From the NCBI RefSeq assembly GCF_024519435.1, contig NZ_JALJRZ010000003.1, positions 248,001 through 312,000 on the forward strand: a stretch of 64,000 nt of DNA, given 5' to 3'. This document shows positions 8,572 to 50,500 of this stretch, in pieces. Under the pieces are notes generated by a model that did no database searches, was not told where the DNA came from, and saw nothing but the letters and a program-made list of their open reading frames with translations. How positions within the stretch are numbered: position 1 is the first letter of the stretch; each line of letters opens with the position of its first letter. Position numbers and translations under genes: made by a program. This stretch comes from Terrabacter sp. Ter38. Lineage in GTDB: Bacteria > Actinomycetota > Actinomycetes > Actinomycetales > Dermatophilaceae.

Positions 8572-8577
8572 GGCGTC

Positions 8578-8583
8578 ACTGTA
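8578..8583 (-). promoter_or_regulatory. -10 element TACAGT of a leaderless transcript
   Basis: TACAGT on the minus strand lies 6 bases before the ATG of the CPBP protease gene, with no ribosome site in between. Confidence 0.5.
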
Positions 8584-8623
8584 GCCGCGCGGCCGACTCC
8601 GCCCGTGGGAGTGCCGGCCGCCG

Positions 8624-8629
8624 TAGGGT
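8624..8629 (+). promoter_or_regulatory. -10 element TAGGGT of a leaderless transcript
   Basis: TAGGGT ends 6 bases before the ATG at 8636. The same hexamer precedes rsmA, ispE and the ABC-F gene at the same place. Confidence 0.55.
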
Positions 8630-8635
8630 CGTTGC

Positions 8636-26323: not shown

Positions 26324-26857
26324 TCAGCCGTGCGAGTCGCGACGCGTCTCGCGCCTCTCGAGCGGGGCCAGCATCCGCCGCAGCAGCCCGGCCAGCTGGG
26401 TCCGGTCGGTCGCCGACAGCTCCGAGAGCAACGACTTCTCCTGCTCGATGAGGTCGGCCATCGCCGAGTCGACGACGTCGCGACCCGCCGGGGTCAGGCG
26501 GACGAGCACGCCGCGCCGGTCACCCGGGTCGGGACGCCGCTCGACGAAGCCGCTGCGCTCGAGTCGGTCGACGCGGTTCGTCATCGTCCCCGAGGTGACG
26601 AGAGTCTGCTGCACGAGCTGGCCGGGCGACAGCTCGTAGGGTTCGCCCGCCCGGCGCAGCGCCGACAGCACGTCGAAGGCCCATCCGTCGAGCAGGTGCT
26701 CGGAGAACGCCGACCCGCGGGCGAGGTCGAGCCGGCGCGCGAGCCGCGACACCCGCGAGAGCACCTCGAGCGGCGACACGTCGAGGTCGGGGCGCTCCCG
26801 GCGCCAGGCCGCGACGATCTCGTCGACGTCGTCGGCTGGCCTGCGGTCGGCGCTCAT
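26324..26857 (-). CDS. MarR-family transcriptional regulator
   Basis: A 177-residue winged-helix regulator. DLDVSPLEVLSRVSRLARRLDLARG is the dimerisation helix, TLVTSGTMTNRVDRLERSGFV the recognition helix region, and RRPDPGDRRGVLVRLTPAG the wing, with the usual DxRxxxLxLT pattern. The C-terminus is the second dimer helix. The gene is divergent from the methyltransferase gene and convergent with the VOC gene. TACAGT (26865-26870, minus) 7 bases upstream of ATG 26857 suggests a leaderless start. Dyads before both flanking genes contain TCTTGA/TCAAGA, so it likely represses both and itself. Confidence 0.92.
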   Translation of the reverse strand: MSADRRPADDVDEIVAAWRRERPDLDVSPLEVLSRVSRLARRLDLARGSAFSEHLLDGWAFDVLSALRRAGEPYELSPGQLVQQTLVTSGTMTNRVDRLERSGFVERRPDPGDRRGVLVRLTPAGRDVVDSAMADLIEQEKSLLSELSATDRTQLAGLLRRMLAPLERRETRRDSHG

Positions 26858-26864
26858 GTTCCCA

Positions 26865-26870
26865 ACTGTA
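26865..26870 (-). promoter_or_regulatory. -10 element TACAGT of leaderless marR
   Basis: TACAGT on the minus strand lies 7 bases before the marR ATG at 26857, adjacent to the TCAAGA/TCTTGA operator. Confidence 0.45.
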
Positions 26871-26876
26871 GTCGCC

Positions 26877-26898
26877 GTCAAGACTCTTGACATCGAAA
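26877..26898. promoter_or_regulatory. MarR-type operator between marR and the methyltransferase gene
   Basis: GTCAAGA-C-TCTTGAC (26877-26891) is a perfect 15-base dyad. In addition TCTTGA-CA-TCGAAA (26885-26898) matches the spacing of the site before the VOC gene with a degenerate right half. Either arrangement would cover the divergent promoters. Confidence 0.7.
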
Positions 26899-26912
26899 GA
26901 AAGCGAGACGAC

Positions 26913-27803
26913 ATGACCGAGCCCACGACCCCACCTGAAGCCGATGGAGTCGAGGTCGCCCCCGACCGTCCGGTCGCCCCAGGCGCTCCTGCCCGCTCCG
27001 CCGACTCCGCCTGGGACCCGCGGCAGTATGCCGTCTTCGCCGGCCACCGCGGCCGGCCCTTCGCCGACCTGCTGGCGCGCGTCGACGCCGACGACCCCAC
27101 GCTCGTCGTCGACCTCGGCTGCGGCCCCGGCGACCTGACGCTCGGGCTCGCCCAGCGCTGGCCCAGCGCACGGATCATCGGCGTCGACAGCTCTCCCGAG
27201 ATGCTCGAGCGCGCCCGGGCCCTCGACACCGACGACCGCGTCGAGTGGGTCGAGGCGAGCGCCGAGGACTGGGACCCGACCGAGTCCGGCGCCCCGGTCG
27301 ACGTCCTCGTCACGAACGCCACGCTCCAGTGGGTCCCGAGCCACCTGCGCCTCATCCCCTCGTGGCTCGAGAGCCTCGCGCCCGGAGGCACGTTCGCCAT
27401 GCAGGTCCCCGCGAACTTCGACGCGCCGTCGCACCGCCTCATGCGCGAGGTCGCGGCGCGCCACCCCCGCGCCGACGACCTGCGCCCGGGACTCGACCGG
27501 GCCCAGGCCGTGGCCCGCCCGGAGACGTATGCCGCCCTCCTGCTCGACCGCACTGCTGACGTCGACGTGTGGCAGACGACCTATCAGCACGTCCTCGGCG
27601 GCGAGGCCGGCGGCCCGCACCCGGTGCTCGAGTGGGTGCGCGGCACGGGCCTGCGGCCGGTGCTCGGCGTTCTCGACGGTGACGAGCGAGACGCCTTCGT
27701 CACGGACTATGAGCGCGAGCTCGAGACGGCATACCCGCGTCGTGCGTTCGGCGTGCTCTTCCCCTTCACGCGCACGTTCGCCGTGGCCCGCGCCGCGCGC
27801 TGA
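26913..27803 (+). CDS. tam: trans-aconitate 2-methyltransferase
   Basis: A 296-residue class I SAM methyltransferase. After a disordered Pro-rich start, SAWDPRQYAVFAGHRGRPFADLL and VVDLGCGPGDLTLGLAQRWPSARIIGVDSS are characteristic of Tam, as are LVTNATLQWVPSH and FAMQVPANFDAPSH. Tam methylates trans-aconitate, a spontaneous by-product that inhibits aconitase. It reads away from marR and sits behind a shared operator. Its 3' end lies at the point where an opposing photolyase gene loses its C-terminal half, so the block may have arrived by recombination. Confidence 0.92.
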   Translation: MTEPTTPPEADGVEVAPDRPVAPGAPARSADSAWDPRQYAVFAGHRGRPFADLLARVDADDPTLVVDLGCGPGDLTLGLAQRWPSARIIGVDSSPEMLERARALDTDDRVEWVEASAEDWDPTESGAPVDVLVTNATLQWVPSHLRLIPSWLESLAPGGTFAMQVPANFDAPSHRLMREVAARHPRADDLRPGLDRAQAVARPETYAALLLDRTADVDVWQTTYQHVLGGEAGGPHPVLEWVRGTGLRPVLGVLDGDERDAFVTDYERELETAYPRRAFGVLFPFTRTFAVARAAR

Positions 27804-28373
27804 CGCGGTCACCTCTCTGGGCGCTGCGTCGCCGCGCGGCTCGTAGGGCGCCGGCACGTCGAGCCGCTCGGCTCCCTGGGGCGGCGGCTCGCGGTTGTCC
27901 TCGTCGGACGACGACCGACAGCCGACGGGCCGGTCGCCCTCGACGAGCAGGTCGAGCCGCTGCCGCTGGAAGCGGTAGAAGTCCTCCATCCGCAGCCGCC
28001 GCCGCCCGTCGGGCCACCGGGCGAAGTCCTCGCGCGACAGGCTGTAGCCCGGCGTCGGGTCGACGGACTCGACGATGCCCGACGCGAGCAGGCGGCGCAC
28101 AAGGCGCTCGGCGGCATACGACGTCGGCTCGTGGACCCGCACCGGCTCGCCCAGCTCGCGCAGCGCGTCGGTGTACGTGTCGCTGCGCAGGAGCGTCGCT
28201 GAGTCTCCGAGCTCGGCGGCCCGGTGGCGCAGCGCCGAGAGCACGAGGTGGAGCTTCTGACGGTGGAACGGTCGCCGTCCCAGTGCCCGACGGCTCTCGA
28301 CGAGCAGGACGCCGCCGCGACCCACGTCGAAGTGCGGGCCGAGCTGGTCGGCGAAGAGCCAGCGCCTCGTCAT
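27804..28373 (-). pseudogene. truncated deoxyribodipyrimidine photolyase-related protein
   Basis: The first ~180 codons read TRRWLFADQLGPHF, VLLVESRRALGRRPFHRQKLHLVLSALRHRA (in pieces), GYSLSREDFARWPDGRRRLRMEDFYRFQRQRLDLL and DEDNREPPP, which is the N-terminal Rossmann domain of the DPRP (FeS-photolyase/PhrB-like) family. The family is normally about 500 residues, with a C-terminal FAD and Fe-S domain. Here homology stops near 27836, where the opposing tam gene begins; the frame stays open only because it is antisense to tam. The usual GGxWNxD before NR is replaced by GCRSSSD, so decay has begun. It cannot repair DNA as encoded. Confidence 0.75.
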
Positions 28374-28898
28374 CGGGTCGGCGGCATCGTCAGGGGCACG
28401 CCCTCATCATGGTCGAGCCCGGCGACAGCCGGGCCGCTCAGAGGGAGGGCGTGGAGTCGTGAGGTAAACCGCCGGTCTCGTCGGGTTAAGGCCCGGGTCT
28501 CGACGACGCCAGCCGTCTCGCTCGGGCAGAAAGTCTGGGTCAATTTCTGGCATTTCGACCCATTTCGGGAAAGCGTGTCATGAAATGGGTCCCGGCACGT
28601 CATACAGATGACGGCACCGAAGGGGTCTCCCGCTTGGTCAGGGGAGGGAGTGGCCCCTACGGGTTTGTCTTCGGTGGTGCCGCCAGGTTTCGTCCTTCCG
28701 CGTGGTTTCGTGGAGGGGATCATCCGGAAGGACGAAACCTGCCCACCGCGCCTCGACGCAGCCCCCGACGAGGGCGCCGAGGCAGGGCCCGATCCGGACT
28801 GTTTCGTCCTGATCTCGCACACGCCCGCGTTCCGACTCGACGCCCGCCCCGCCGCTTGGCAGACTGACCCGCACCGGGGCAGGAGAAGGGCGAGAGGG
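28374..28898. other. intergenic region with two long inverted repeats
   Basis: About 525 bases without a convincing gene. It holds GACCCATTTC (28557-28566) inverted to GAAATGGGTC (28582-28591), a GTCATGAAA motif (28577-28585), and a perfect 17-base inverted repeat at 28685-28701 and 28726-28742. AT content is higher than in flanking genes. An in-frame extension of the downstream sigma gene back to 28608 is open but has no protein-like character. Confidence 0.6.
28685..28742. repeat. 17-base perfect inverted repeat with 24-base spacer
   Basis: CAGGTTTCGTCCTTCCG (28685-28701) is exactly inverted at 28726-28742. It lies ~160 bases upstream of the sigma fusion gene. It may be a regulatory hairpin in the leader, an attenuator or a remnant element end. 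Confidence 0.75.
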
Positions 28899-30788
28899 TT
28901 GTCGGCAGACGCGACCTTGTGGTCGAGCGAGGCATGGGCCTCGGCCCCTGACGTGTCCCTCCTCGCCCGGACCCGCGAAGGCTCCGCCGAGGCGTTCGGC
29001 GAGCTGTGGCGTCGCCACCTGCCGGCTGCGTATGCCGTCGCCGGACGTCACCGGGGCCGCTCGGCCCCGGAGGACATCGTCGCGGAGGCTGCCGCGCGCG
29101 TCCTCGCGCTGATCCGCGCGGGCAAGGGGCCCGACGAGCACTTCCGGGCCTACTTCCTCTCGGCCGTGCGGTCCGTCGCCATCGACCAGGGCCGCCGCGA
29201 CCTGCGGGTCGTGCCGACCGAAGCCGACGACCTCGAGGTCCTCGCCGACCCGACCGACGACCCCTTCGAGGGGCTCGCCACCGACGACGACGGCCTCGCC
29301 CTCGTCCGGGAGGCCTTCGCCGGGCTGCCCGAGCGCGACCAGCGCGTGCTGTGGCACACCACGGTCGAGGGCGCCGCGCCGCGCGCCGTCGCGCCGGCCC
29401 TCGGCATGACCGCCAACGCCGTCAGCGTTCGGGCCATGCGGGCCCGGGAGTCGCTCCGGGCGCTCTACCTCGACGCCCGGGCCGAGCGCGGCCTCGCCGC
29501 GGCCGACACCGACGAATGCCACTGGACCGTGAGCCACCTCGGGGCGCTCGTCCGGGGGCGCCTGCCCAAGCGGCAGACCGAACGTGCCGAGGCACACGTC
29601 GCCGAGTGCCCCCACGCCGCCGCCATCGCCGCCGACCTGCGGGTCATCCACGAGGGCTTCCCGGCGCTCATCGTCCCGCTCGCGCTGCTGGCGGGCCTCG
29701 GCACGCCGGGCTTCGTCAGTGTCCCGGCCGTCGTCGGTCTCTCCGGCGGGGCCGGAGCGGCCGGCTTCGCCGGGTTCGCCGGCGTCGCGGGTGGGGGGGC
29801 CCAGGGTGCGGATGCCGCGGGTCAGCCTGTGCCGTCGCCCTCCTCCTCCTCATCTGCCGGTTCCGGGACCTCGGTCGAGGTCCTGGCCCAGGCTGCGAGT
29901 CGGGTCACCGGGCTCGTCGCGGGGCTCGCGGTGACCGCGGGCGTCGCCGGCGCGCTGGCCCTGCCCGGCGCCTCCCTGGCAGCGCCGTCGGCGGCCGCGA
30001 CGGTTCCGACCGCCTCCTCGCCGGCGGCAGGGGCTGCCGCCGGTCCGGGCGGCGCCCCGGCCCCCGGCGGACGGACCGCCTCGGGTGCCTCCGGTGCCGT
30101 CGCCACACCCGTCCAGAGCTCGACCGGCCCGGCCGGCACGAGCGCCGCGGCCGTCCCCTCGACGTCGGGTCGGCCGACACCGTCCGCCGGCACGGACGGC
30201 GACGGTGCCGCCACGCCCTCGACCGCATCCGGCACCCCGGTGCCTCCGGGCGCGCCCCGGGCCGACAGCGGTGGCGCCGATCCGGCGCCCCCGCCGGCCC
30301 CCGCACCCGCGGCGAGCGACACCCCCGGACGACCGACGGCCACTGCGCCCGCGACGCCGCCGGCCCCGGCGCCCGCGACGCCGCCGACGCGGCCGCCGGC
30401 TCCCAGCCCGACGCCCCCGGCGCCGACCACGACGCCGACCACGACGCCGACCACGACGCCCCCGGCACCCCAGCCGGGTGGCGTCGCGCCCACCATCACG
30501 GTCCGCCTCGTGTCCGGACGCGACCCGGCACGGATCTCCGTGCGCGTGCGCTCCCGGGTCGAGGGCTCGATGACGGTGCGCATCAGCGACGCGTCCGGCG
30601 CCGGGACGCTCTCGGTGCGCAACTCCAGCTGGACGTGCACGCAGACGAGCACGTCGGCGGTGCGGTGCACCGGCGAGCGGGGGCAGGCGCTGCTCGAGCA
30701 GTCCGGCACCGGAGGCGCCCAGGCCGTCGTCGTTCGCGTCACCGACGCCGCCGGCGACACGTGGACGGAGACCGTCCGCCCCACCTGA
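28899..30788 (+). CDS. ECF sigma factor fused to anti-sigma zinc domain, hydrophobic segments and Pro-rich tail
   Basis: About 629 residues read from TTG 28899, which has AGGAGAAGG 9 bases upstream. Sigma region 2 lies at about 15-95 (DVSLLARTREGSAEAFGELWRRHLP, HFRAYFLSAVRSVAIDQGRR) and region 4 at about 140-190 (LPERDQRVLWHTTVEG, ALGMTANAVSVRAMRARESL). Then comes a ZAS-like zinc segment, CHWTVSHLGALVRGRL to EAHVAECPHA (about 205-235). Hydrophobic Gly/Ala-rich stretches at about 250-300 and 335-365 could cross the membrane. A long Pro/Ala/Thr/Ser tail (about 370-530) ends in a ~95-residue beta domain with a Cys pair. It looks like a membrane-held sigma factor with built-in inhibitor and an external sensor. 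A paralogue lies 1 kb away. Confidence 0.85.
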   Translation: MSADATLWSSEAWASAPDVSLLARTREGSAEAFGELWRRHLPAAYAVAGRHRGRSAPEDIVAEAAARVLALIRAGKGPDEHFRAYFLSAVRSVAIDQGRRDLRVVPTEADDLEVLADPTDDPFEGLATDDDGLALVREAFAGLPERDQRVLWHTTVEGAAPRAVAPALGMTANAVSVRAMRARESLRALYLDARAERGLAAADTDECHWTVSHLGALVRGRLPKRQTERAEAHVAECPHAAAIAADLRVIHEGFPALIVPLALLAGLGTPGFVSVPAVVGLSGGAGAAGFAGFAGVAGGGAQGADAAGQPVPSPSSSSSAGSGTSVEVLAQAASRVTGLVAGLAVTAGVAGALALPGASLAAPSAAATVPTASSPAAGAAAGPGGAPAPGGRTASGASGAVATPVQSSTGPAGTSAAAVPSTSGRPTPSAGTDGDGAATPSTASGTPVPPGAPRADSGGADPAPPPAPAPAASDTPGRPTATAPATPPAPAPATPPTRPPAPSPTPPAPTTTPTTTPTTTPPAPQPGGVAPTITVRLVSGRDPARISVRVRSRVEGSMTVRISDASGAGTLSVRNSSWTCTQTSTSAVRCTGERGQALLEQSGTGGAQAVVVRVTDAAGDTWTETVRPT

Positions 30789-30813
30789 ACCCCTCACACG
30801 AGGGGGGTGTTCA
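30786..30813. terminator. bidirectional terminator between sigma fusion gene and tetR
   Basis: TGAACCCCTC-ACAC-GAGGGG with GTGTTCA completing the outer stem. It contains the stop codons of both convergent genes. Confidence 0.75.
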
Positions 30814-31467
30814 GCGGTGGGGGACGGTGACGAGCCGCGGGGTGCGGTCCAGCCCCGAGAGACCGTTCCAGGCGAGGTTGACGAGGTGCGCTGCGACCTG
30901 GTCCTTCTTGAACTTGCGTCGATCGAGCCACCACTGCCCGGTCAGAGCCACCATTCCGACGAGCATCTGCGCGTGGATCGGTGCCGACCTGGGGTCGAGG
31001 CCGCGCTGCTTGAACTCGGCGGCGAGCAGGTGCTCGACCTGGACCGCGACGTCACCGAGGACGCTCGCGAACGACCCGGTCGACTGGCCCGGCGGCGAGT
31101 CCCGCACGAGGATCCGGAAGCCCGACGGGTCGCTCTCGATGTAGTCGAGCAGGGCGAGGGTGGCCCGCTCGAGCAGGACCCGCGCCCCTTCCGGCTCCTC
31201 GAGCGCCGTGCTGATGCCGCCCATCAGCGCCTGGATCTCACGGTCCACGACGACGGCGTAGAGGCCTTCCTTGCCGCCGAAGTGCTCGTAGACGACCGGC
31301 TTGGAGACGCTCGCCTTGGCCGCGACCTCCTCGACCGTCGTCGCCTCGAAACCCTTGTCGGCGAAGAGCTTGCGACCGACGGCGATGAGCTGCTCACGGC
31401 GTTCCGGGCCGGTCATCCGGGCGCGAGGGCGGGAGCGGTCGGCGCGGTCTGAACGGTCGGCGGTCAC
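30811..31467 (-). CDS. TetR-family transcriptional regulator
   Basis: A 218-residue regulator. The N-terminal HTH is GPERREQLIAVGRKLFADKGFEATTVEEVAAKASVSKPVVYEHFGGKEGLYAVV (about 18-70, quoted for its landmarks ATTVEEVA and KPVVYEHF). The rest is the helical ligand and dimer domain. The GTG at 31467 is chosen because CACAAT (31474-31479, minus) sits 6 bases upstream as a leaderless -10; ATGs further inside would still keep the HTH. It lies between, and is opposite in direction to, the two sigma fusion genes, so it may control one or both; its ligand is unknown. Confidence 0.9.
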   Translation of the reverse strand: MTADRSDRADRSRPRARMTGPERREQLIAVGRKLFADKGFEATTVEEVAAKASVSKPVVYEHFGGKEGLYAVVVDREIQALMGGISTALEEPEGARVLLERATLALLDYIESDPSGFRILVRDSPPGQSTGSFASVLGDVAVQVEHLLAAEFKQRGLDPRSAPIHAQMLVGMVALTGQWWLDRRKFKKDQVAAHLVNLAWNGLSGLDRTPRLVTVPHR

Positions 31468-31775
31468 GCCGCCATTGTGCCTGTCCCGGTCCCGTCGGCC
31501 GCGACGGATGAGGCCGGACCCGACTTTCTTGCCGAATCCCGTCATGAAACGCCCCCCCGACACGTCTATGTCATTGGTAGGGAGGAGGCGGTTCGCGCCG
31601 GGCGCCGTGTGGGGACACGGTTCGGCCGAGACCGCCGGTGAGGTCGATCTCGACGCGAAGGGGCGGGCGCGGATCGACCTCACCGTCATGCCCGACGACA
31701 CTTCGGCAAAGACCCCCACGGGGCGGCCGTCGTGGAGCACACTGGTGAGGCACATCCGGCGAAAGGTGCCGCAGA
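31468..31775. other. intergenic region between tetR and the second sigma fusion gene
   Basis: About 308 bases without a convincing gene. It contains CACAAT before tetR and GTCATGAAAC at 31541-31550, a motif shared with the upstream regions of the first sigma fusion gene and the beta-helix gene at 53.5 kb. GAAAGG near 31760 may be the ribosome site for the GTG at 31776. Confidence 0.5.
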
Positions 31776-34295
31776 GTGTCAGCACACACGATGGGACCAC
31801 GGTCCGACACCATGACCGCCGCACCCGCGACGGCTGGGGTCGAGGAGTCCGATGTCGTGCTGCTCGCGCGGGCGCGCTCGGGCGACGAGGAGGCCTTTGC
31901 AGCGCTCTGGCGCCGCCACCTGCCAGCCGCCCACGCCGCCGCCACGCCGTATCGCGGCCGCGTGTCCGCCGAGGACCTCGTGGCCGAGGCCTCTGCCCGT
32001 CTCTTCCATCTCCTGAGCGAGGGGAGGGGACCGTCGTCGAACTTCCGCGCGTACTTCCTGTCGACCGTCCGCACCGTCGGCGTCGACGCGATCCGTCGTG
32101 AGATGAGCGTGGTCCCGACGTCGACGACGGACCTCGACCTGCTGCCCGGCCCTGACGAAGGACTGTCGGCCCTCAGCGCCCAGGGTGTCGACACGGACCT
32201 GGTCCGAGAGGCTTTTCTCCGGTTGAGCGAGGGAGATCGACGGCTGCTCTGGCAGACGATGGTCGAGGGCCATCCGCCGCGGGTGGTCGCTCCCGAGCTC
32301 GGTGTCTCGGCCAACGCGGCCAGTGCACGCGCGAAGCGCGCTCGTGACGAGCTCCGGGACCGCTATCTCGACTCCTGGGTGCGGCGCCGGGTGCCGGTCT
32401 GCGACGCGCGCGACTGTCGCTGGACCCTCGACCATCTCAGCGGCCACGTCCGAGGCCGACTGACGGAGCGGCAGCGAGCGCGCGTCGAAGCGCACCTGGA
32501 CTGCTGTCCTCGCGAGGCGGGACTCGCCGTGGAGCTGCAGCGCGTCTACGACGGGTTCGGTGCACTGACCGGTCCTCTCCTCCTCGCCGCCGGAGCGACG
32601 ATGCTCGCCGGGCTGCCCCCGGGGACTTTCGCTGCTCTGGTCGGGTCGAGCGCGGCGGGTGCGACCACGGGTGCGACCACGGGTGCGACCACGGGTGCGA
32701 CCACGGGTGCGACCACGGGTGCGACCACGGGTGCGACCACGGGTGTGACGGCGGGTGCCGGTGCTGCGGGTGGAACGGCCGGCGCGGGTGCCGCGGGCAC
32801 GACTGCCGTCGCCTCGGTCGGCGCCGGGTCCACGGTCGGAGGCACGGTTGCAGGCAGCGCCGGTCTCGGCGGCACGCTGACCGCGAGCGGTGCCGGGGCG
32901 ACGGCATCCGGCGCGGCGGCCGCAGGAGCGGGAATCACCACGGGGGCGACCTCCGTGTCGGCCGCCACCGCGGCCGGTACGGCCGCCGCCGGTACGGCCA
33001 CGTGCGCGGGTGCGGGCGGCGCAGTCCTCACGGTGCCGGCTGCGGCCGGCATGGCCGGGACCACCGCCCTCATGTCCAGCGCGGCCATCGTCACTCCCGT
33101 CGCCGCGTTGACGGGCGGTTCGATCCTGGCCGGGACGGCGATCGGCCCACCCCTCGCCACCGCGATGGCCGGCCTTGTCGTGGGGCTCGGCCTCTCGGTT
33201 GCACCGGCGGCAGCGCACGACCTTGGTACGACGGCGACGACGTCGGTCGCCGCCTCGGTCGACGGCGCCACACCTGTGCTCAGCCCCGGGTCGGTGGCCG
33301 GGGCGGCCGCCGGCACGACCCCGGTCGACGTGCTCCACCTCGCCCTCCTCCCTGCCCCCGCCGACCCCGCGCCGACCGACCCCGCGCCCGCGGCCCCTGC
33401 GCCGTCCGACGCGACGCCCGTCGACCCCGCGCCTGCACCCCCGGCGCCTCCGGACCCAGCACCTGCTGCTCCGGCACCCGTCGACCCCGCGCCGTCCTAC
33501 TCGACGCCGGCCGACCCGACGCCTGCCCCGTCGGCGCCGGCCGACCCGGCGCCCGCGGATCCGGCGCCTGCCGACGCGACGCCGGCCGACCCGGCGCCGG
33601 CCGACCCGGCGCCTGTGGCTCCGTCAGATGCGACGCCTGTCGACCCCACGCCGGTCGACCCGACGCCGGCCGACCCGACGCCGGTCGACCCGACGCCGGC
33701 CGATCCGACGCCGGTCGACCCGACGCCGGCCGATCCGACGCCGGCCGATCCGACGCCGGCCGACCCGACGCCGGCCGATCCGACGCCGGTCGACCCGACG
33801 CCGGCCGACCCGACGCCGGCCGCTCCGACGCCGGTCGACCCGACGCCGGCCGATCCGACGCCGGCCGATCCGACGCCGGCCGATCCGACGCCGGCCGATC
33901 CGACGCCCGCGGATCCGGCGCCTGTGGCTCCGTCAGACGCGACGCCTGTCGACCCGACGCCGGCCGATCCAGCACCTGCCGACTCGGCTCCGTCCGACCC
34001 GGCGCCGACGGATCCCGTTCCGGCTGAAGGTGATTCGGGATCCTCGACGGTTGACCCTGTCTCCGCGCCCGGTGGCGCAGATCCGGCGGACCCCGCGGCG
34101 ACGAGCGCGGCGTCCAGCCCGGCGACCGAGAACGGCCAGCTGCGTTCCGCCAGTCCAGGAGCCGACCAACCGGCAGATCCGCCGACCGAGCCGACATCCG
34201 TCGTCGCCGCCCCGGTCCAGGGCTCCCACGGTCCTGCCGCCGGTGATGCGACGCCGGAGACACCGCCCGGCGACGCGCCCCCGGCAGGTGCATGA
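31776..34295 (+). CDS. second ECF sigma/anti-sigma fusion with repeat-rich tail
   Basis: 839 residues, paralogous to the protein at 28.9 kb. Sigma region 2 is at about 25-105 (DVVLLARARSGDEEAFAALWRRHLP, FRAYFLSTVRTVGVDAIRR) and region 4 at about 145-195 (LSEGDRRLLWQTMVEG, ELGVSANAASARAKRARDEL). The zinc segment follows: CRWTLDHLSGHVRGRL, then EAHLDCCPREA. Hydrophobic Ala/Gly-rich stretches flank seven GATT repeats, and a stronger helix pair lies near 425-475, ending APAAAHD. From about 520 on, the protein is Pro/Asp/Thr/Ala repeats (DPTPA/DPTPV, 18 units) and then an acidic tail. Unlike its paralogue no folded C-terminal domain is visible. Start GTG 31776 or ATG 31812. Probably a membrane-tethered sigma factor with a wall-spanning stalk. 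Confidence 0.83.
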   Translation: MSAHTMGPRSDTMTAAPATAGVEESDVVLLARARSGDEEAFAALWRRHLPAAHAAATPYRGRVSAEDLVAEASARLFHLLSEGRGPSSNFRAYFLSTVRTVGVDAIRREMSVVPTSTTDLDLLPGPDEGLSALSAQGVDTDLVREAFLRLSEGDRRLLWQTMVEGHPPRVVAPELGVSANAASARAKRARDELRDRYLDSWVRRRVPVCDARDCRWTLDHLSGHVRGRLTERQRARVEAHLDCCPREAGLAVELQRVYDGFGALTGPLLLAAGATMLAGLPPGTFAALVGSSAAGATTGATTGATTGATTGATTGATTGATTGVTAGAGAAGGTAGAGAAGTTAVASVGAGSTVGGTVAGSAGLGGTLTASGAGATASGAAAAGAGITTGATSVSAATAAGTAAAGTATCAGAGGAVLTVPAAAGMAGTTALMSSAAIVTPVAALTGGSILAGTAIGPPLATAMAGLVVGLGLSVAPAAAHDLGTTATTSVAASVDGATPVLSPGSVAGAAAGTTPVDVLHLALLPAPADPAPTDPAPAAPAPSDATPVDPAPAPPAPPDPAPAAPAPVDPAPSYSTPADPTPAPSAPADPAPADPAPADATPADPAPADPAPVAPSDATPVDPTPVDPTPADPTPVDPTPADPTPVDPTPADPTPADPTPADPTPADPTPVDPTPADPTPAAPTPVDPTPADPTPADPTPADPTPADPTPADPAPVAPSDATPVDPTPADPAPADSAPSDPAPTDPVPAEGDSGSSTVDPVSAPGGADPADPAATSAASSPATENGQLRSASPGADQPADPPTEPTSVVAAPVQGSHGPAAGDATPETPPGDAPPAGA
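32658..32741 (+). repeat. seven perfect 12-base tandem repeats encoding GATT
   Basis: GGTGCGACCACG repeated seven times without change (units start 32658, 32670, 32682, 32694, 32706, 32718, 32730), followed by a diverged unit GGTGTGACGGCG. Perfect identity points to recent slippage or recombination; copy number changes keep the frame. Confidence 0.95.
33639..33908 (+). repeat. about 18 tandem 15-base repeats encoding DPTP(A/V)
   Basis: Units GTCGACCCGACGCCG or GCCGATCCGACGCCG follow one another for 270 bases, differing only at GTC/GCC and GAC/GAT positions. A longer block ending GCGCCTGTGGCTCCGTCAGA flanks the array on both sides (33609 and 33918), showing a larger duplication. The array encodes a Pro-rich, acidic stalk. 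Confidence 0.93.
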
Positions 34296-42141: not shown

Positions 42142-42846
42142 GTGTCCTGGGTTAGTCGGGTATTCACTGATGTGCGACCAAACGGTGCACGGTCCAGGCT
42201 GGCAGCAGCACCTCGTCATGTGCGCGGACTGGTCGTGGGGGCCGCTGGCTTGACCCTCGTCCTGAGCGCGTGCTCCACCGCGAGTTCCGTCTCGCCCTCC
42301 GCCGCACCCACCACGCCCAATGCTGCGTCCAGCACTACGGCGAAAGCCGCTGACGAACCCACGGGCACTGCCGTCAGACCTCCGGACCCGCTAGTTGCCT
42401 CACTGCCAAGCTTCAAACGCGCCGGCGGCCTCGGCAGGGGGCGGGCGCAGGCGGAAGCCAAGGCTTTCGACCAAGCTGTCGTCTACGCCGACGGCGTCAA
42501 AGTGAAGATCGTCGCCATCAAGCAGACCGTGACGTCCGGCAAGGGTCCCGGCGTCTTCGTCGGCTCCCCGCTGACCCAGCTGGACGTCGAAGTGACGAAC
42601 GACTCATCCGCCGACCTCGTCCTCGACCAGGTCGTCGTCTCGATGGTCTACGGTTCGCCCCAGCGGCTCGCTGCAGCCGTCTACGAGGACGGCGCCGTGG
42701 ACCTGGGTGGGGCTGTCGCGGGTGGCAAGTCCAAGACCGGACGCTACATGTTCTCCGTTCCCACCGCCCAGCTCTCCCGTGTGTCGCTCAACGTCGACTT
42801 CGACGGCAAGCATGCGGCGGCGACGTTCAAAGGGTCCGTTAGATGA
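42142..42846 (+). CDS. lipoprotein of the surface locus
   Basis: About 234 residues from GTG 42142, or 224 from GTG 42172. The signal GLVVGAAGLTLVLSAC ends in a lipobox (Cys near 44 of the longer form), so the protein is predicted to be lipid-anchored. A Ser/Thr/Pro linker follows to about residue 80. The folded part has a beta-rich pattern: KVKIVAIKQTV, LDVEVTNDSSADLVLDQVVVSMVYG, GRYMFSVP, LSRVSLNVDFDG, like the DUF4352 telokin-like extracellular fold. The role is unknown. The stop overlaps the start of the first large LamG/PKD protein by 4 bases, so the lipoprotein is translationally coupled to it. Confidence 0.85.
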   Translation: MSWVSRVFTDVRPNGARSRLAAAPRHVRGLVVGAAGLTLVLSACSTASSVSPSAAPTTPNAASSTTAKAADEPTGTAVRPPDPLVASLPSFKRAGGLGRGRAQAEAKAFDQAVVYADGVKVKIVAIKQTVTSGKGPGVFVGSPLTQLDVEVTNDSSADLVLDQVVVSMVYGSPQRLAAAVYEDGAVDLGGAVAGGKSKTGRYMFSVPTAQLSRVSLNVDFDGKHAAATFKGSVR

Positions 42847-45800
42847 ACCTCGCCCCTCGGCGCAGCTGGACTGCCAGTCGCGGCCTTCGTGCCACCGCCA
42901 TCGCCGTCTCAGTGGCCCTTACTTGCCTCGGTCTCACCCCAAGCGGTGCCACGGTCGCCCACGCCGACACGGCGCCTGAAGCGGGCGTACCCGCCACCGT
43001 AACCGCCGACGCACTGCCCACGTGGCAGGTCAACGGAGTGGTCTGGTCGCAGGTCATCGTCGGCAACACCGTGTACGTCACCGGCAAGTTCGCCACCGCC
43101 CGACCGCCGGGTGTGTCTGTCGGGGGCGCCGGGGAGGTCCCGGTCGGCAACCTCTTCGCATATGACATCCGCACCGGCAACCGCGTGCCCGGTTTCGACC
43201 ACGTGCTCAACGCGCAGGGCCTGGTCGTGCACGCCACCTCGGACGGCTCACGCCTGTACGTCGGTGGTGACTTCACCTCCGTCGACGGTCAGCCGCGCGG
43301 CCACATCGCGGCCTTCGACCTCTTGACCGGCGCCCTCGTGTCCGACTTCGCGCCGACTCTCGACGGCACGGTGAAGGCGATCACCACCGACGGCACGTGG
43401 GTCTACGCCGGTGGTGGCTTCTTCCATGCCGGTGAGGTCTACCGCCAGCGCCTAGTGGCCTTTGCGGCTGTCAACGGTGGCATCTCCTCGACGTGGGCGC
43501 CGCGGGCCTCGACCTCCGACGTGCGCGCCATGGTTATGGCCCCCGACCGGTCGAAGGTCATCATCGGAGGGTCTTTCCTGACCCTGAGCGACGTGACCGC
43601 GAACGGTATGGGCGCGGTCGACCCGATCGACGGCACCGTGCTCCCGTGGGCCGCAAGCTCGGTCATCAAGGACTACGACAACGGCGGCATCAACTCACTG
43701 ACGACCGACGGCACGAGCATCTACGGCTCCGGTTTCGCATTCGGCACCGGGGGCACCTTCGAAGGCAGCTTCGCGGCCAACCCCGCCGACGGTACGGTCA
43801 TCTGGATCGCCGACTGCCTCGGCGACACGTACGCCGTCTACCCTGACGCCGACGCGGTCTACAGCGTCGGCCACGCGCACAACTGCAGCAACGCGGGCGG
43901 CTTTCCCGACACGAACCCGCGCGTTCGCTGGCAGCGCGCCCTGGCCACCACGAAGACGGCCACCGGCACGATCGCCGCGCCCGACGCCTACGGCTGGAAC
44001 TTCACGGGTCAGGGCACGCCCTCGCTGCTGCACTGGTACCCCGGGCTCGAGGACGGCGCCGCCTCCGGCCAGTCCCAGGCCGCCTGGAGCGTCGTCGGCA
44101 CCGGTGACTACGTCGCCCTCGCGGGTGAGTTCCCGATCGTCAACAACGCCTACCAGCAGGGACTGACCCGCTTCGCGAAGCGCGCCGTCGCCCCCAACCT
44201 GGCCCGCCCACGGTTCGACGTGGTGCCCGCCAAGGTCGTCCCGACGGTGGCCGCGGCGCTCCAACCCGGCAAGGTGCGCCTCACCTACGGCTCGGCCTGG
44301 GACCGCGACAACGAACTCCTCACCTACGAGGTGTTCCGCGACTCGACCATCGTCAGCACAACCACGCTGCGGACGAACTTCTGGACCACCCCGTCGGTGT
44401 CGTTCACGGACACCGGGGTGCCGGCCGGTACGCATGTCTACAAGGTCCGGGTGACGGACCCGCTGGGGAACAGCAACTACACGACCGGCTCCAACCAGGT
44501 CGTGGTGCCCACCGCGGCCCCGGCCTACGCCGGTGCGGTGCTCGACGGCTCACCCAGTGCCTTCTGGCGTCTCGGGGAGTCCGCCGGTCCGACCGCCTAC
44601 GACTACACCGGAAACGGCAACGAGGCGACTGCTCTCGCAGGCGTGGCGTTCGGCGGTGCCGGCGCCACCGAGGCATCGGCCGCCCCCGACACGTCGGTAT
44701 CCCTCTCCGGTACCAGCACCGGGCTGCTCGCCGGCGCGACGCCGATCACCGCCCCCGACACCTTCAGCGTGGAGGCGTGGTTCAGGACGACGACCACGCG
44801 AGGCGGCAAGATCATCGGCTTCGGCAACAAGACCAACGGCTCGAGCACGGTGACGGACCGCAACGTCTACCTCGACAACACCGGGCACGTCCTGTTCGGC
44901 GTCAACCCCGGGTCGGTGAAGACCGTCAGCTCGACGGGCGTCTACAACGACGGACAGTGGCACCACGTGGTGGCGACCCTCGGGACTGACGGCCAGCGGC
45001 TCTACGTGGACGGCCAGTTCGTCTCCCGCAACGTCGCCGTGACCAGCGCCCAAGCGGGCGTGGTGGGCCAGTGGGTCCTTGGTGGTGACACCCTCACCGG
45101 AGCCGCGAGTGCACCGACCAGCCGGTACCTCGCGGGCTCGATCGACGATGTCGCCGTCTACCCGTCGGTGCTCTCCCCGGCCACGGTGCGCTCGCACTAC
45201 GTCGTGAGCGGTCGTACCGCTGCGGTGGCCCCTGCGCCGGTCGACCCGTACGGCGCTGCCGTGACCGCTTCCCACCCGTCGTCGTACTGGCGTCTCGACG
45301 AGGCCTCCGGCACCCTCGCGTCCGACGCGAGCGGCGCGAACGAGACCGGCACCTATGTCGGCACACTGACGCGTTCGCAGGCCGGCGCGGTCGGCTCGGG
45401 CACCGCAGTGCTGGCGAACGGGTCGAACGGGTTCGTCGCCAGTGCGCTCAACTCGGTGGGCCCCCCCGCCTACAGCGCCGAGGTCTGGTTCAAGACCACG
45501 ACGACCAAGGGTGGCAAGCTCATCGGCTACGGCGACAAGGCGACCGGCGCCAGTGCGGTCATCGACCGCAACCTCACCATGGTGAACAGCGGGGCGTTGC
45601 GGTTCTCGACGAACAACAACACTGCGGTGCTCGACTCGCCTGCCACCTACCGTGACGGCCAGTGGCACCACGCGGTGATCGCCCAGGACGCAGCCGGGAT
45701 GGCCCTGTACGTGGACGGCGCGCGGGTGGCCTCCAACACGGCATCCGCCACGACGTCCTTCGTCGGCTACTGGCGCTTCGGTGGCGACCTCACGTGGGGT

Positions 45801-47549
45801 GGCAGCACGAGCAGCTACTTCGGCGGAACGCTCGACGAGGCCGCGGTGTACCCTTCCGCGCTGTCCATCGCCGACGTCCGGGCCCACTACCGCGCGTCGG
45901 GTCGAGCCCTGCCCAACGCCCTGCCCACGGCTGACTTCTCCTCGACGCACGCGAAGCGGGTCTACTCCTTCGACGCCACGGCGTCCCGTGACGACGACGG
46001 TCCCCTCACGTCGCTCGCGTGGGACTTCGGCGATGGCGGCACCGCCTCCGGCGCCACGGCACAGCACACCTACAGCAAGGCCGGCAACTACACGGTCACC
46101 CTGAAGGTCACCGACTCCGCCGGCGCTGTCGCCACGAAGACCGCAGTGGTCACGGTGGACAACGCCGCCCCCGTGGCCTCCTTCACGAGCGCCGTCACGG
46201 GCAAGGCGGTGGCACTCGACGCGTCCGGCTCGTCGGATGCCGATGCGCCCATATCGAGCTACGTCTGGCAGTTCGGTGACGGAGCCACGGACGCCGGCGT
46301 GACGGCCAACCACGTGTATGTACACGCGGGTTCCTACCAGGTCACGCTCACGGTGACCGACAGTGACGGCGTGGCGGTGGCCACCACCTCGACCGTCGAC
46401 GCGGTCAACGCCACCCCCACGGCTGCCTTCACCAAGGCGGTGACCGACCTGGCGGTCGACGTCGACGCGGCCGCGTCGGGCGACGCCGACGGATCGGTCA
46501 TTGGGTACGCTTGGGACTTCGGCGACGGAGGCACGGCGAGCTCGGTGTCGGCGAGCCACACGTACGCCACCGGCGGCACGTACACCATCACCCTCACCGT
46601 GACCGACGACGACGGCGCCGTCGCGGTCAAGACCAACGAGGTGACGGTGCGGGCGGCGAACCAGCTGCCGACCGCCGGCTTCGCGGCCACCGCGCCGTCC
46701 GACCTCCTCGGTGCGTTCGACGCCTCGGCGTCGGCCGACCCCGACGGCTCGGTCGTCACCTACGCCTGGACCTTCGGCGACGGCCAGACGGGCACCGGTG
46801 CGACGACGCAGCACACCTACGGGGCGATCGGCACCTACCAGGTGGGTCTCACCGTGACCGATGACCGAGGCGGCTCGGCGACGACCTCGAAGGCGGTCGT
46901 CATCACGGGCCCGACCGGCGCCGACACCTTCAGCCGCACGCAGGCAACCGGTTGGGGCACCGCTGACACGGGTGGAGTGTGGACCCTCCAAGGTGCTGCC
47001 AGCACCTTCACGGTTGCCGGCGGGGTGGGCACGATCAAGCACGCGTCCGCCGGAGCCGGCGCGGCCGTACAGCTGAACGGACTTTCCTCGACCGACACCG
47101 ACCTCTCGTTGCAGCTGTCCACGGACAAGCTGGTCAACGGTGGCGGACAGTACGTCTACGTCACCGGCCGCGGTTCCTTCTCCGACGCCTACCGCACGAA
47201 GATCCAGGTGACGAGCAGCGGTGCTGTGGTCGTCGCACTGACCAAGGTCGTTGGCAACACTGAGACGACCTTGACCACCAAGGTCGTGGCGGGGCTGACC
47301 ATCGCCCCGCAAGGGGCGTACACGGTTCGCACTCAGACCTTCGGGACCTCACCCACCACGATCCGGGCGAAGATCTGGCCAACCGGCCAGACTCAGCCCG
47401 CCGACTGGGCGGCGAGCATCACCGACGCCACGGCCACGCTGCAGGTGCCAGGAGCCATCGGCCTGCGCACGTACATCTCGGGGACGGCCACCAACCTCCC
47501 GGCAAACATCTCATTCGACAACATCGTCGCTCGCGCGACCGGCAACTGA
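42843..47549 (+). CDS. large secreted protein: beta-propeller-like head, 2 LamG, 4 PKD, C-terminal module
   Basis: 1568 residues. A signal sequence (about 1-42, ALTCLGLTPSGATVAHA) is followed by a repeat region to about 445 with YVTGKFATA, YVGGDFTSVDG and IIGGSFLTLSD units, like delta-60/beta-propeller proteins. A fibronectin-like domain spans about 460-555, two LamG sugar-binding domains about 560-795 and 800-1015, and four PKD domains about 1020-1360 (WDFGDGGTASGATAQHTY type). A ~200-residue C-terminal module closes the protein (about 1365-1568). No sortase signal or membrane anchor is seen. It probably binds polysaccharide and forms an adhesive or capsule-organising fibre. It is coupled to the lipoprotein and followed by a longer paralogue 9 bases on. 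Confidence 0.88.
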   Translation: MNLAPRRSWTASRGLRATAIAVSVALTCLGLTPSGATVAHADTAPEAGVPATVTADALPTWQVNGVVWSQVIVGNTVYVTGKFATARPPGVSVGGAGEVPVGNLFAYDIRTGNRVPGFDHVLNAQGLVVHATSDGSRLYVGGDFTSVDGQPRGHIAAFDLLTGALVSDFAPTLDGTVKAITTDGTWVYAGGGFFHAGEVYRQRLVAFAAVNGGISSTWAPRASTSDVRAMVMAPDRSKVIIGGSFLTLSDVTANGMGAVDPIDGTVLPWAASSVIKDYDNGGINSLTTDGTSIYGSGFAFGTGGTFEGSFAANPADGTVIWIADCLGDTYAVYPDADAVYSVGHAHNCSNAGGFPDTNPRVRWQRALATTKTATGTIAAPDAYGWNFTGQGTPSLLHWYPGLEDGAASGQSQAAWSVVGTGDYVALAGEFPIVNNAYQQGLTRFAKRAVAPNLARPRFDVVPAKVVPTVAAALQPGKVRLTYGSAWDRDNELLTYEVFRDSTIVSTTTLRTNFWTTPSVSFTDTGVPAGTHVYKVRVTDPLGNSNYTTGSNQVVVPTAAPAYAGAVLDGSPSAFWRLGESAGPTAYDYTGNGNEATALAGVAFGGAGATEASAAPDTSVSLSGTSTGLLAGATPITAPDTFSVEAWFRTTTTRGGKIIGFGNKTNGSSTVTDRNVYLDNTGHVLFGVNPGSVKTVSSTGVYNDGQWHHVVATLGTDGQRLYVDGQFVSRNVAVTSAQAGVVGQWVLGGDTLTGAASAPTSRYLAGSIDDVAVYPSVLSPATVRSHYVVSGRTAAVAPAPVDPYGAAVTASHPSSYWRLDEASGTLASDASGANETGTYVGTLTRSQAGAVGSGTAVLANGSNGFVASALNSVGPPAYSAEVWFKTTTTKGGKLIGYGDKATGASAVIDRNLTMVNSGALRFSTNNNTAVLDSPATYRDGQWHHAVIAQDAAGMALYVDGARVASNTASATTSFVGYWRFGGDLTWGGSTSSYFGGTLDEAAVYPSALSIADVRAHYRASGRALPNALPTADFSSTHAKRVYSFDATASRDDDGPLTSLAWDFGDGGTASGATAQHTYSKAGNYTVTLKVTDSAGAVATKTAVVTVDNAAPVASFTSAVTGKAVALDASGSSDADAPISSYVWQFGDGATDAGVTANHVYVHAGSYQVTLTVTDSDGVAVATTSTVDAVNATPTAAFTKAVTDLAVDVDAAASGDADGSVIGYAWDFGDGGTASSVSASHTYATGGTYTITLTVTDDDGAVAVKTNEVTVRAANQLPTAGFAATAPSDLLGAFDASASADPDGSVVTYAWTFGDGQTGTGATTQHTYGAIGTYQVGLTVTDDRGGSATTSKAVVITGPTGADTFSRTQATGWGTADTGGVWTLQGAASTFTVAGGVGTIKHASAGAGAAVQLNGLSSTDTDLSLQLSTDKLVNGGGQYVYVTGRGSFSDAYRTKIQVTSSGAVVVALTKVVGNTETTLTTKVVAGLTIAPQGAYTVRTQTFGTSPTTIRAKIWPTGQTQPADWAASITDATATLQVPGAIGLRTYISGTATNLPANISFDNIVARATGN

Positions 47550-47558
47550 GGATCAACG

Positions 47559-50500
47559 ATGCTCTCCTTCAAGTCTCCATTCGGTGGCGCCCGGCGCTCG
47601 CGCACGGTTCAGGCGGGTCGCGACGGTCAGAGCAGGGTCCGGCTGTCGGGCTCGTGGCGGCGTCGAGTGGCGCTGCCGGTCGTCATCGGAATGTTCGGCG
47701 CCGCCCTGCCGGTCGCGCTCTCGACGAGCAGCGCCGTGGCCGACACGCGGCCGCCGGCCGGCGTGCCTGCCACCGCCTCGGCGAAGGCCCTGCCTACCTG
47801 GCAGATCAACGGCGTCGGTTGGGCACAGGTCGTGGTGGGCAACACCGTCTACGTCACCGGCAACTTCACGACAGCGCGCCCCCCGGGGGTCGGCATCGGC
47901 GGCGCCGGCCAGGTGAACGTCGGCCACCTTCTGGCCTACGACATCACTACCGGCAACCGCATCGCCTCGTTCAACCACATTCTCAACGCCCAAGGACGCG
48001 GCATCGCCGCGTCACCCGATGGCTCAAGGGTCTATGTCGTCGGCGACTTCACGACGGTCGACGGCGCGGCGCGCGGCCACGTCGCCGCCTTCGACACTGT
48101 GTCCGGCGCTCTCGTGACGAACCTGGCACCCAACGTCAACGGCGCCGTGCGTGCCGTCACGGCCACCAATACGGCTGTCTACTTCGGAGGGTCCTTCAGC
48201 AACGTCAACGGCACAGCGCGCGGCAGTCTCGCGTCGGTGAACACGTCCGACGGTTCGCTGCGCAGCTGGGCCCCGGGCGTCGACGCGACCGTCTGGTCGA
48301 TGGTGCTGACGCCCGACCTGAGCAAGGTCGTCATCGGCGGCCAGTTCGTCAATCTGAACGCCACCGTCGTCAATGGCCACGGTGCCGTGTCGGCTTCGAC
48401 GGGCGGGATCCTGCCCTGGTTGGCGAACCAGTACGTGCACGACGCCACCAACGGAGCGGTCGGCTCGCTGACCACCGACGGGACCTACATCTACGGCACG
48501 GGCTGGGCATTCGGCGCCGGCTCCTCGTTCGAGGGCACGTACGCTGCCAACCCGGCCGACGGCTCCATCCATTGGATCTACGACTGCCTCGGCGACACCT
48601 ACAGCGCGGCTGCCGCAGGGGATGCGATCTACTCCGTCGGGCACAGCCACGACTGCACCATGATCGACGAGTTCCCCGACACGAACCCGCGCGTTCGCTG
48701 GCAGAACTCACTCGCCTTCACGAAGGACGCTCGGGGCACCAACCGGGGCCCGGACGTCTACGGCTGGAACTACAACGGTCTCCCTGCGCCGAAATTGCTC
48801 CACTGGTTCCCGCAGTGGTCCAACGGCAGCTTCACCGGTCAGTACCAGGCTGGTTGGAGCGTCACCGGCAACAGCCAGTACGTCGCCGTGGCGGGGGAGT
48901 TCCCCTACGTCAACGGCGGCGCGCAACAGGGCCTGGTTCGCTTCGGCATCGGAACGACCGCCAACAACACGTCCGGCCCGACCTACGAGACCAAGCCGCC
49001 ACGCGACGTGCCGTCGACGACAGCCGGCTCGGTGCGGCCCGGAACGGTGCGTGTCGGCTTCGGCTCGGCCTGGGACTATGACAACGAGACCCTGACCTAC
49101 CAGGTCGTCCGCGACGGCAACACCAACGTCGGCGCCCCGATCACCCAGAAGTCGAACTTCTGGACCCTCCCGTCGCTTTCCATCACCGACACCAACGTGC
49201 CCGCCGGCAACCACACCTACCGGGTGCGGATCACCGACCCGTTCGGCAACCTGCTGCTCAGCCCTGTGTCGAACCAGGTGGCCGTCTCGAACACCATCGG
49301 CGCCTACGGCGACGCGGTCATCGCAGATGACCCGGTCGACTACTGGCGCTTCGGCGAGGCTGGTGGCAACCTCGCGCTCGACGGCGGTTCGGCCGGGCTC
49401 GACCAGTCGACCAAGGCCGGCGTGACGTGGGGCGCTTCCGGCGCGGTGAGCGGCAACACCGCTGCCAGATTCGACGGCACCAGCACGGGCCAGGCGGGCA
49501 CCTCGACGCTGATCAGCGGCCCCGACAGCTTCGCCACCGAGGCGTGGATCAACACCACGACGGCCAGTGGCGGCAAGATCCTCGGGTTCGGCAACTCGAA
49601 CCAGGGCGGCAGCGGTAGCTACGACCGTCACGTCTACATGACCAGCGCGGGCAAGCTCGTCTTCGGCATCTACGACGGCGGCACCCGGACCATCACCACG
49701 GCCGACTCGTTCAACGACGGGCAGTGGCACCACATCGTGGCCTCCATGGGCAGCGAGGGGATGCGCCTGTACGTCGACGGCCTCCTGCAGGGCAAGCAGC
49801 CCAGCGTCACGGCCGGCCAGCCCTACCAGGGCTACTGGCTCGTCGGTGGTGACAGCCTCGGCGGCTGGCCGGACCAGCCCAGCTCGAACTTCTTCGCGGG
49901 AGCGATCGACGAGGTCGCCGTCTACGGTGCGCCGCTGACTGAGGCAAAGGTGCGTGCGCACTACACGGCGAGCGGCCGCACCGTGAACGTCCCGCCGGCG
50001 CCGAGCGACAGCTACGGTTCCGCCGTCTACGGCTCGACGCCCGACTTCTACTGGCGCCTCAACGAGGCCACGGGCTCTGTCGCCCGTGACGAGATGGGCA
50101 GCACGAACGGCAACCTCACCGGCGGGTTCACCCTCGGTGTGGCCGGTGCCGTGCCCGGTCAGGCCGGTGACAAGTCCGTGGGTCTGGACGGGGTCAACGG
50201 CAACGTCACCGCCGCGACGACGGTCACCAACCCGACGACCTACTCCGAGGAGCTGTGGTTCAACACGACCACGACCCGTGGTGGCAAGCTCATCGGGATG
50301 GGTGACCAGCCCACCGGCAACAGCGGCGGGTACGACCGGCACGTCTGGATGCTCAACGACGGCAGGCTGCGCTTCGGCACCTGGACCGGTCAGCCGAACA
50401 CCATCGACAGCAGCAGGCCGTACAACGACGGTGGCTGGCACCACATGGTCGCCACCCAAGGTGCCGCTGGCATGAAGCTGATCGTCGACGGCGTGCTCGT

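Follow-up and report, generated by a model that had tools for sequence, protein, structure and literature searches.

Previous descriptions of the ECF sigma factor groups ECF48, ECF52 and ECF53 present them as C-terminal fusions, in which the sigma part is followed by a zinc finger, one to two helices and a long extension, and from which the sigma part is expected to be freed by proteolysis; the best understood member is SCO4117 (PMC8999054). SCO4117 is described as consisting of a sigma part, a zinc finger, a membrane region, a Pro-rich extension and an end domain, and both release by an uncharacterised protease and positive autoregulation were proposed for it, as was a putative motif, CSGYN-17bp-SRHA, which is still called theoretical (PMC5826349). 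The original prediction for the locus studied here, made from the DNA sequence alone, had treated the fusion of sigma and anti-sigma parts as a departure from the usual separate anti-sigma protein. That claim does not hold, since the architecture is already known from ECF48, ECF52, ECF53 and SCO4117.

The window, a 64,000-nucleotide stretch of a Terrabacter genome (G000:C33:248001-312000, part of a 4.83-Mb genome in 54 contigs), carries two such fusion genes on the plus strand. P1 (28899..30788) has a TTG start and encodes 629 residues, in which domain matches and structure models point to an ECF sigma part, a built-in anti-sigma domain (ASD), a putative membrane segment, a Pro-rich tail and a predicted beta-sandwich domain. 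P2 (31776..34295), with a GTG start and 839 residues, is by domain matches a paralogous sigma/ASD fusion that continues into a Gly-Ala-Thr linker, hydrophobic stretches and a DPTP repeat tail. The frames had been placed correctly to the base, and neither contains an internal stop. The TTG start of P1 is backed by an aligned GTG start in the Intrasporangium calvum gene (L001); an N-terminal extension to the ATG at 28608 was rejected in view of that GTG and of stops just 5' of the TTG in L085 and L088. Over the 249 residues of sigma plus ASD the two proteins share 52% identity, and beyond this part only low-complexity matches are found. As had been noted, the paralogues differ most in their tails. 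Between them lies the expected TetR gene, on the minus strand (30811-31467 from a GTG start, or to 31416 from an ATG start), whose product is FasR-like, with a match to the FasR model (E 9e-32, 110 bits) under the FasR cut-off of 330. Divergent from P1 is a 617-aa frame (26520-28373, minus strand) with a match to photolyase-related DPRP over residues 5-190 only, perhaps a cut-short gene. Elsewhere in the window (42843-53252, plus strand), two surface-type proteins of very large size, 1568 and 1901 aa, contain PKD and laminin-G domains, and a gene for a beta-helix protein comes after them; comparison of the 1901-aa protein with the end domain of P1 revealed no kinship.

Both proteins pass the Pfam cut-off for Sigma70_r2 (24.8 bits in P1 and 30.2 in P2 against 24) and that of the whole-ECF model TIGR02937 (59.8 and 51.9 against 42.9), which argues for an ECF layout. 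Sigma70_r4_2 stays under its Pfam cut-off of 25.7 in both (22.0 and 19.5), and the assignment of sigma regions 2 and 4 is in this respect borne out for region 2 and for the ECF model as a whole. The zf-HC2 family is matched above its cut-off of 22.2 (24.9 bits in P1, 33.2 in P2; Pfam), which points to a zinc-finger ASD in the same chain. The Cys/His zinc segment had likewise been recognised in the original prediction, and is incomplete: the last ligand of HxxxCxxC is absent from both P1 and P2, also in an alignment of 67 proteins from which duplicates were dropped. In P1 the zinc-finger-like core (29517..29618, plus strand; Pfam match and alignments) is C207-H233-C237, with Ala (residue 240) at the fourth Cys position. 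An AF2 model of the N-terminal half of P1, which is weak (mean pLDDT 61), places helices at 205-266 after the sigma part; the Foldseek matches inspected for this half were sigma chains (best E 0.001), the ASD itself being unmatched.

To place these genes among their relatives, a profile was built from the sigma/ASD parts of P1 and P2 (two rows). At E <= 1e-30 it has matches in 30 of the 186 family genomes, at 1e-25 in 136 of 396 from the order, and at 1e-20 in 136 of 394 from the class, draws that share genomes; relatives of the sigma/ASD parts, for which a survey of genomes had been suggested, are common. The listed relative frames are mostly 500-1600 residues long. Named genome contigs yielded one relative, Intrasporangium calvum PheN6, with 69% in its best-matching segment. 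In a tree of 102 of the 103 proteins, 25 genes form one clade (support 100/100, branch 0.72); for the motif and residue counts below, membership was set at E < 1e-80 against the profile of two rows, a cut that yields the same 25 genes as the tree. Related sequences are counted singly throughout, with no tree weighting, and such counts do not represent independent events. The P1 and P2 genes of the genus fall in separate subgroups, and the P2 subgroup joins with lone genes from two further genera (97/95), so that the duplication, judged from this tree, seems older than the genus. Among the nine genus genomes, five have P1 and P2 together (G000, G171-G174), three have P1 alone (G170, G176, G177), and the 74%-complete G175 has one gene only, of the P2 type. 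A second, separate branch of sigma/ASD fusions also occurs in the genus (L098-L101, four genomes), with an intact HxxxCxxC and a strong membrane segment.

Members of the clade share an altered zinc site. In alignments, the first Cys, the His and the second Cys are kept in all 25 clade members, while the last Cys of HxxxCxxC is found in none, its place being taken by A in 17, E in five, D in two and T in one; outside the clade the same position is C in 77 of 78 relatives, the remaining one being a gap in a badly aligned row. In these alignments, the missing last Cys is a clean marker of the clade, and the residue before it is H in 17 of the 25. The clade hence lacks the Hx3Cx2C signature of the zinc-binding class I anti-sigma domain. 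PMC7406223 recognises zinc binding by this signature and reports groups in which zinc and non-zinc members occur side by side, so the loss of a zinc ligand is not unheard of. A redox sensor in which the last Cys forms a ZAS disulfide is unlikely, since that Cys is lost in the clade; zinc may still be bound through other residues. The surroundings of the genes are also conserved. Among the 17 larger clade loci, 15 have a tetR gene as neighbour of the sigma gene (the window, L001, L083-L093, L095 and L096), as does the short L037; none is seen in L097, and L094 meets a contig end. Most of the 17 also have MarR and methyltransferase genes on the near side and glmU-prs beyond, where the sequence reaches. 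The tie of tetR to the sigma genes is one of synteny, and it was set aside as a part of the circuit proposed below.

The original prediction included neither a promoter-like motif, nor a leader hairpin, nor a small RNA (sRNA). Upstream of P1 is GTCATGAAA-N12-CGTC (28577..28601, plus strand), which is kept in orthologues and lies 297 nt from the start codon; upstream of P2, genome and genus scans found GTCATGAAA-N13-CGTC (31541..31566, plus strand). The strict motif, GTCATGAAA-N11..14-CGTC, was first seen as a common block in aligned leaders. It has four sites in the 4.83-Mb genome, against none for the reversed control: those of P1 (28577) and P2 (31541), C11:272492, and C22:116052, which is within a frame. 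The nine genus genomes (N11..13) contain 20 sites, eight at P1, five at P2, six at a candidate sRNA and one other; the 186 family genomes yield 39 strict sites, 24 before clade genes or the sRNA and 15 scattered (reversed control 3), sites being assigned to genes by position in both sets. A loose form, GTCA-N15..18-CGTC, was counted for 101 genes with at least 250 nt upstream. Within the clade, 23 of 25 genes have it upstream, against a mean of 1.1 in shuffles, 1 on the opposite strand and 4 for the reversed pattern; outside the clade it precedes 11 of 76 relatives (shuffle 2.1, reversed 0) against 22 on the opposite strand, so that little can be concluded from the loose form by itself. The GAAA part of the motif is not universal, as seen from GTCATGATCC in L035, GTCACGATCC in L041, GTCATGGAAC in L040 and GTCATGATC at the sRNA of G172.

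Which sigma factor reads this motif is the point at which the most serious alternative arises. The ECF41 promoter, given as TGTCACA-n16-CGTC (PMC3426412), is close to the motif of P1 and P2, and the clade contains GTCAC variants as well as variants without GAAA. A different sigma factor, for example of the ECF41 type, might read the motif, in which case P1 and P2 would merely belong to its regulon and act on separate targets at other places; other candidate readers abound, as the ECF model has 46 matches in the genome, 36 of them above the cut-off. This alternative sits poorly with the placement of 24 of the 39 strict family sites before clade genes or the sRNA, even with 15 elsewhere, and with the finding that GTCAY-N14..17-CGTC occurs within 450 nt upstream of none of 20 other ECF-like genes (the best 20 of the 46 matches). 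We regard it as unlikely, and favour P1 and P2 themselves as the readers.

Hydrophobic stretches, as had been predicted, are present in both proteins by hydropathy. P1 has two main ones after the ASD, with KD values of 1.93 for the first and 1.89 for the second; the second has the lower insertion score in P1 and is clearly the stronger in several relatives (L092, L093, L098-L101). Residues 336-354 in this second stretch (29904..29960, plus strand), with an Arg just before, are the most likely membrane-spanning segment, and AF2 models a helix there (324-352) at low confidence. The first stretch is modelled within a helix (238-266) that continues the ASD, also at low confidence (pLDDT 61). In P2 several weak hydrophobic stretches are seen, of which none stands out.

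If both stretches of P1 span the membrane, the tail would be inside, and the protein would sense something in the cytoplasm. Such a topology draws on the nearly equal KD values of the two segments, on the one to two helices given for ECF48, ECF52 and ECF53 (PMC8999054), and on the K+R counts, which alone show no bias at segment 2 (29 up, 26 down and 43 ties among 98 proteins). Net charge at segment 2, in contrast, is asymmetric in the same 98 proteins, being higher before than after it in 71, lower in 8 and equal in 19; 101 of the 103 proteins were scored (L109 has no zinc-finger match, and one region is too short), and the 98 with a segment score <3.5 were used. The tails themselves also weigh in. 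Among nine relatives scanned with Pfam, Sigma70_r2 is above the cut-off in all nine and zf-HC2 is found in all nine, just under the cut-off in L131; the tails carry NPCBM in two (L129, L131) and I-set plus ricin-B lectin in one, above cut-off, and sub-threshold DUF11 or DUF3344 in two, with nothing recognised in four. The end domain of P1 contains a conserved Cys pair, kept in 13 of 13 P1-type tails examined, a set to which L035 and L041, at contig ends, do not belong. The lectin, NPCBM or Ig domains in three of the nine tails and this Cys pair suggest that the tail is likely outside the cell. Together with the charge asymmetry and the placement of segment 1 in the ASD helix, they make a cytoplasmic tail quite improbable.

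The terminal domain of P1 (30486..30785, plus strand; structure model, fold search and alignment) had been foreseen as a beta domain of about 95 residues with two cysteines, and is indeed predicted as a nine-strand beta fold (pLDDT 90). Its best Foldseek match is a CLIPPER adhesin domain (E 2e-4, TM 0.52, rmsd 5.9), which suggests that the modelled fold resembles, in general and loosely, adhesin or Ig-like sandwiches. No Pfam family was found in this domain or in the P2 tail. The latter ends in the predicted DPTP repeats, with 31 DP[TAS]P units (33357-34007, plus strand) against 15, 18, 7 and 7 in four orthologues from the genus, a number that shifts rapidly. That variation, and a tail in which Pfam recognises no folded domain, could be taken to mean that P2 is a decaying copy, its tail being expanding repeat DNA with no sensor domain. 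We give this little credence, because the sigma and ASD parts, the start and the motif are all kept in P2 orthologues, and the P2 clade has the sister genes in two other genera mentioned above.

Between the motif and the start codon of P1 lies a conserved leader RNA (28634..28759, plus strand; alignment and folding), with a G-rich first hairpin and a long second hairpin; the stretch 28600-28765 folds with a z of -4.15. A 25-bp hairpin with the loop GUGGAG (28683..28743, plus strand) has a z of -7.3, and z values of -5.8 to -7.6 in the six loci folded singly. Across 13 orthologous loci (10 distinct rows), 94% of the cells are paired. Eight pairs are changed on both sides, as is reached in 2 of 500 shuffles, with 15 such cells (0 of 500); the covariation score is 0.300 against 0.168 in shuffled alignments, none of the 500 attaining it, and slid controls do not exceed 0.114. 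L092 and L093 are included in this covariation alignment; L096, which is in the 14-row leader alignment, was left out of the covariation set, as its outer stem is unalignable, and alone has a z of only -2.56. G-U pairs are kept in the sense of P1, where they swap with G-C or A-U, and one pair is U-G in 10 of 10 rows. These kept pairs suggest that the hairpin acts as an RNA of P1 sense. That it is instead a DNA operator or a repeat element, as a long inverted repeat upstream of P1 with a tetR gene nearby might invite one to think, is very improbable, for the kept G-U pairs fit RNA, and among the 12 genome sites of TCGTGGAGGGG (control 11) only the P1 leader and the sRNA form the hairpin head in 72-nt folds, which argues against a dispersed repeat.

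The loop string CGTGGAGGGG occurs upstream of 14 of the 25 clade genes, namely L096 and 13 P1-type genes (P1 of the genus, of G099, G041, L001/G042, G039 and G040), and upstream of none of the seven P2-clade genes. A role of the loop GUGGAGGGG as antisense to many mRNAs was rejected, as 12 sites against 11 for the reversed control give no excess, and only two of them form the head. In an Intrasporangium genome (G041; L166:1024-1389) a strict motif site is followed by a leader with CCCCUCCACG, the complement of the P1 hairpin loop, and shortly thereafter by an 85-aa frame that is hydrophobic by eye and has no Pfam match; the second strict motif site of G017 shows no such loop-complement arrangement. 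Against Rfam, the P1 leader gave sub-threshold matches and none at gathering score, at which the window contains only two tRNAs.

The candidate sRNA is a structured element of about 136 nt on the minus strand (G000:C11:272355-272490; L153:1856-1991), recognised by motif, folding and covariance model, and lies between two converging gene-like frames. In the consensus fold, the motif is followed by hairpins and then by a 16-bp GC-rich terminator-like stem; the length of 134-136 nt reflects a cut from the motif to this stem, with unmapped ends. Six sequences have a mean identity of 95% and two compensated pairs, that is, strong conservation and thin covariation, and a 111-nt cut without the terminator-like stem has a z of -0.89, no better than shuffles. 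At gathering score, no Rfam match was found for four loci. With strict filters, the covariance model finds the sRNA in seven of the nine genus genomes and in none of 177 other family genomes. The seventh, in G172, is preceded by GTCATG-N15-CGTC, so that the same motif type precedes the sRNA in all seven. G170 and G177 have the sRNA and lack P2, and hence, as far as gene content tells, the sRNA does not need P2; G176 has P1 and no detected sRNA. The head UUC-GUGGAG-GGG of the P1 leader is also predicted in the sRNA. Searches with the sRNA model give P1 leaders no more than weak scores, with E 0.034 for the window and 0.0035 for L096, so that the two appear to share the hairpin head, not the whole fold. 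A CsrA/CsrB-type decoy system was rejected, CsrA being absent from the genome (0 matches of PF02599, against matches in 3 of 14 controls).

From the domains, the clade, the loss of the fourth ligand position, the motif, the leader covariation and the sRNA conservation, all read from sequence, we consider it probable that P1 and P2 are autoregulated membrane-held ECF sigma factors of the ECF48/52/53 kind, whose regulon includes the sRNA. Each would be a membrane-anchored ECF sigma factor that carries its class-I anti-sigma domain in the same chain, and the ASD helices after the sigma part would hold the N-terminal sigma inactive. A single pass, through the second hydrophobic stretch, would put the Pro-rich tail outside, with its beta-sandwich and Cys pair in P1 and a repeat spacer in P2. 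A signal on the tail would then lead to cleavage and free the sigma part, as proposed for SCO4117, and the freed sigma would read GTCAYGAAA-N-CGTC promoters at its own gene, its paralogue and the ~136-nt sRNA. As one hairpin head is predicted in both, the P1 leader and the sRNA would probably meet the same partner, RNA or protein, and thereby close a post-transcriptional loop.

The core of the original prediction was likewise a sigma factor in one piece, held at the membrane, with its tail outside and with proteolytic release. The membrane-held form with an outer tail stands as the best reading, and release is proposed in the literature for ECF48, ECF52 and ECF53 and for SCO4117. Its sensing part fared otherwise: no result supports the sensing of wall tension or a surface ligand, the P1 tail being only loosely like adhesin or Ig-like sandwiches. 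The CPBP protease named as a possible releaser is a real, Rce1-like protein (7699-8688, minus strand; PF02517, E 7e-17), 20 kb away, for which no tie to the pair was found. A more ambitious version, which we put forward tentatively and with some doubt, is a self-contained circuit in which a one-piece membrane sigma factor drives its own gene, that of its paralogue and an sRNA dedicated to the circuit, in which the sRNA and the leader compete through the GUGGAG head for one partner, an RNA-binding protein or an RNA, so that the sRNA tunes how much sigma is made after release, and in which the clade has dispensed with the zinc/disulfide switch found in ordinary ZAS domains.

Sigma/anti-sigma fusions occur widely among Actinobacteria, and genome comparison here gives a concrete promoter motif and a short list of candidate targets: self, paralogue and sRNA. 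RNA-binding partners in Actinobacteria are poorly known. If the proposal is true, a loop common to a sigma mRNA and to an sRNA of the same regulon would offer a handle on post-transcriptional control in this group.

SCO4117 of Streptomyces coelicolor (ECF52), as far as it is described, shares with P1 and P2 a single chain of sigma, zinc finger, membrane region (predicted in P1 and P2), Pro-rich extension and end domain, and adjoins atrA, which we take to be a TetR-family gene. Its end domain is given as a carbohydrate-binding module, whereas P1 ends in a sandwich with no assigned family and P2 in repeats, and Pfam finds a carbohydrate-binding end domain in neither; its CSGYN-17bp-SRHA motif differs from that of P1 and P2, and the NPCBM-tailed Streptomyces-like relatives belong to another tree branch than the P1/P2 clade. 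ECF53 and ECF48 of Actinobacteria are described as C-terminal fusions in which the zinc finger is followed by one or two helices and then by a long extension, a layout likewise predicted for P1 and P2. P1 and P2 differ in the changed fourth zinc ligand position, and they are likened to these groups by layout. The ECF41 factors resemble P1 and P2 in their fused C-terminal regulation and similar promoter motif, and are set apart by an extension described as SnoaL-like (PMC8999054). ECF41 factors are not known to have a membrane segment. IutY (ECF243) of Pseudomonas putida is likewise a sigma factor fused to a membrane anti-sigma part, and its sigma part is freed by Prc and RseP; unlike P1 and P2, it serves iron-siderophore signalling in a Gram-negative bacterium, and the passages that describe it mention no zinc finger or Pro-rich tail (PMC8999054). 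In the enterobacterial sigmaE-dependent sRNAs, as in the proposed circuit, an ECF sigma factor is described as driving an sRNA. CsrB-type decoy RNAs likewise present GGA in the loop of a hairpin; lack of an Rfam match at gathering score and of CsrA in the genome separates the P1 leader and the sRNA from them. The open-access literature returned by queries on the subject, made without the motif or RNA sequence, contains no report of the clade, the motif or the RNA in the parts retrieved. The fusion architecture itself is thus of a known kind and common in relatives, and what appears to be new, in comparison of sequences, is the clade-wide loss of a zinc ligand, the promoter-like motif, the covarying leader hairpin and the candidate sRNA.
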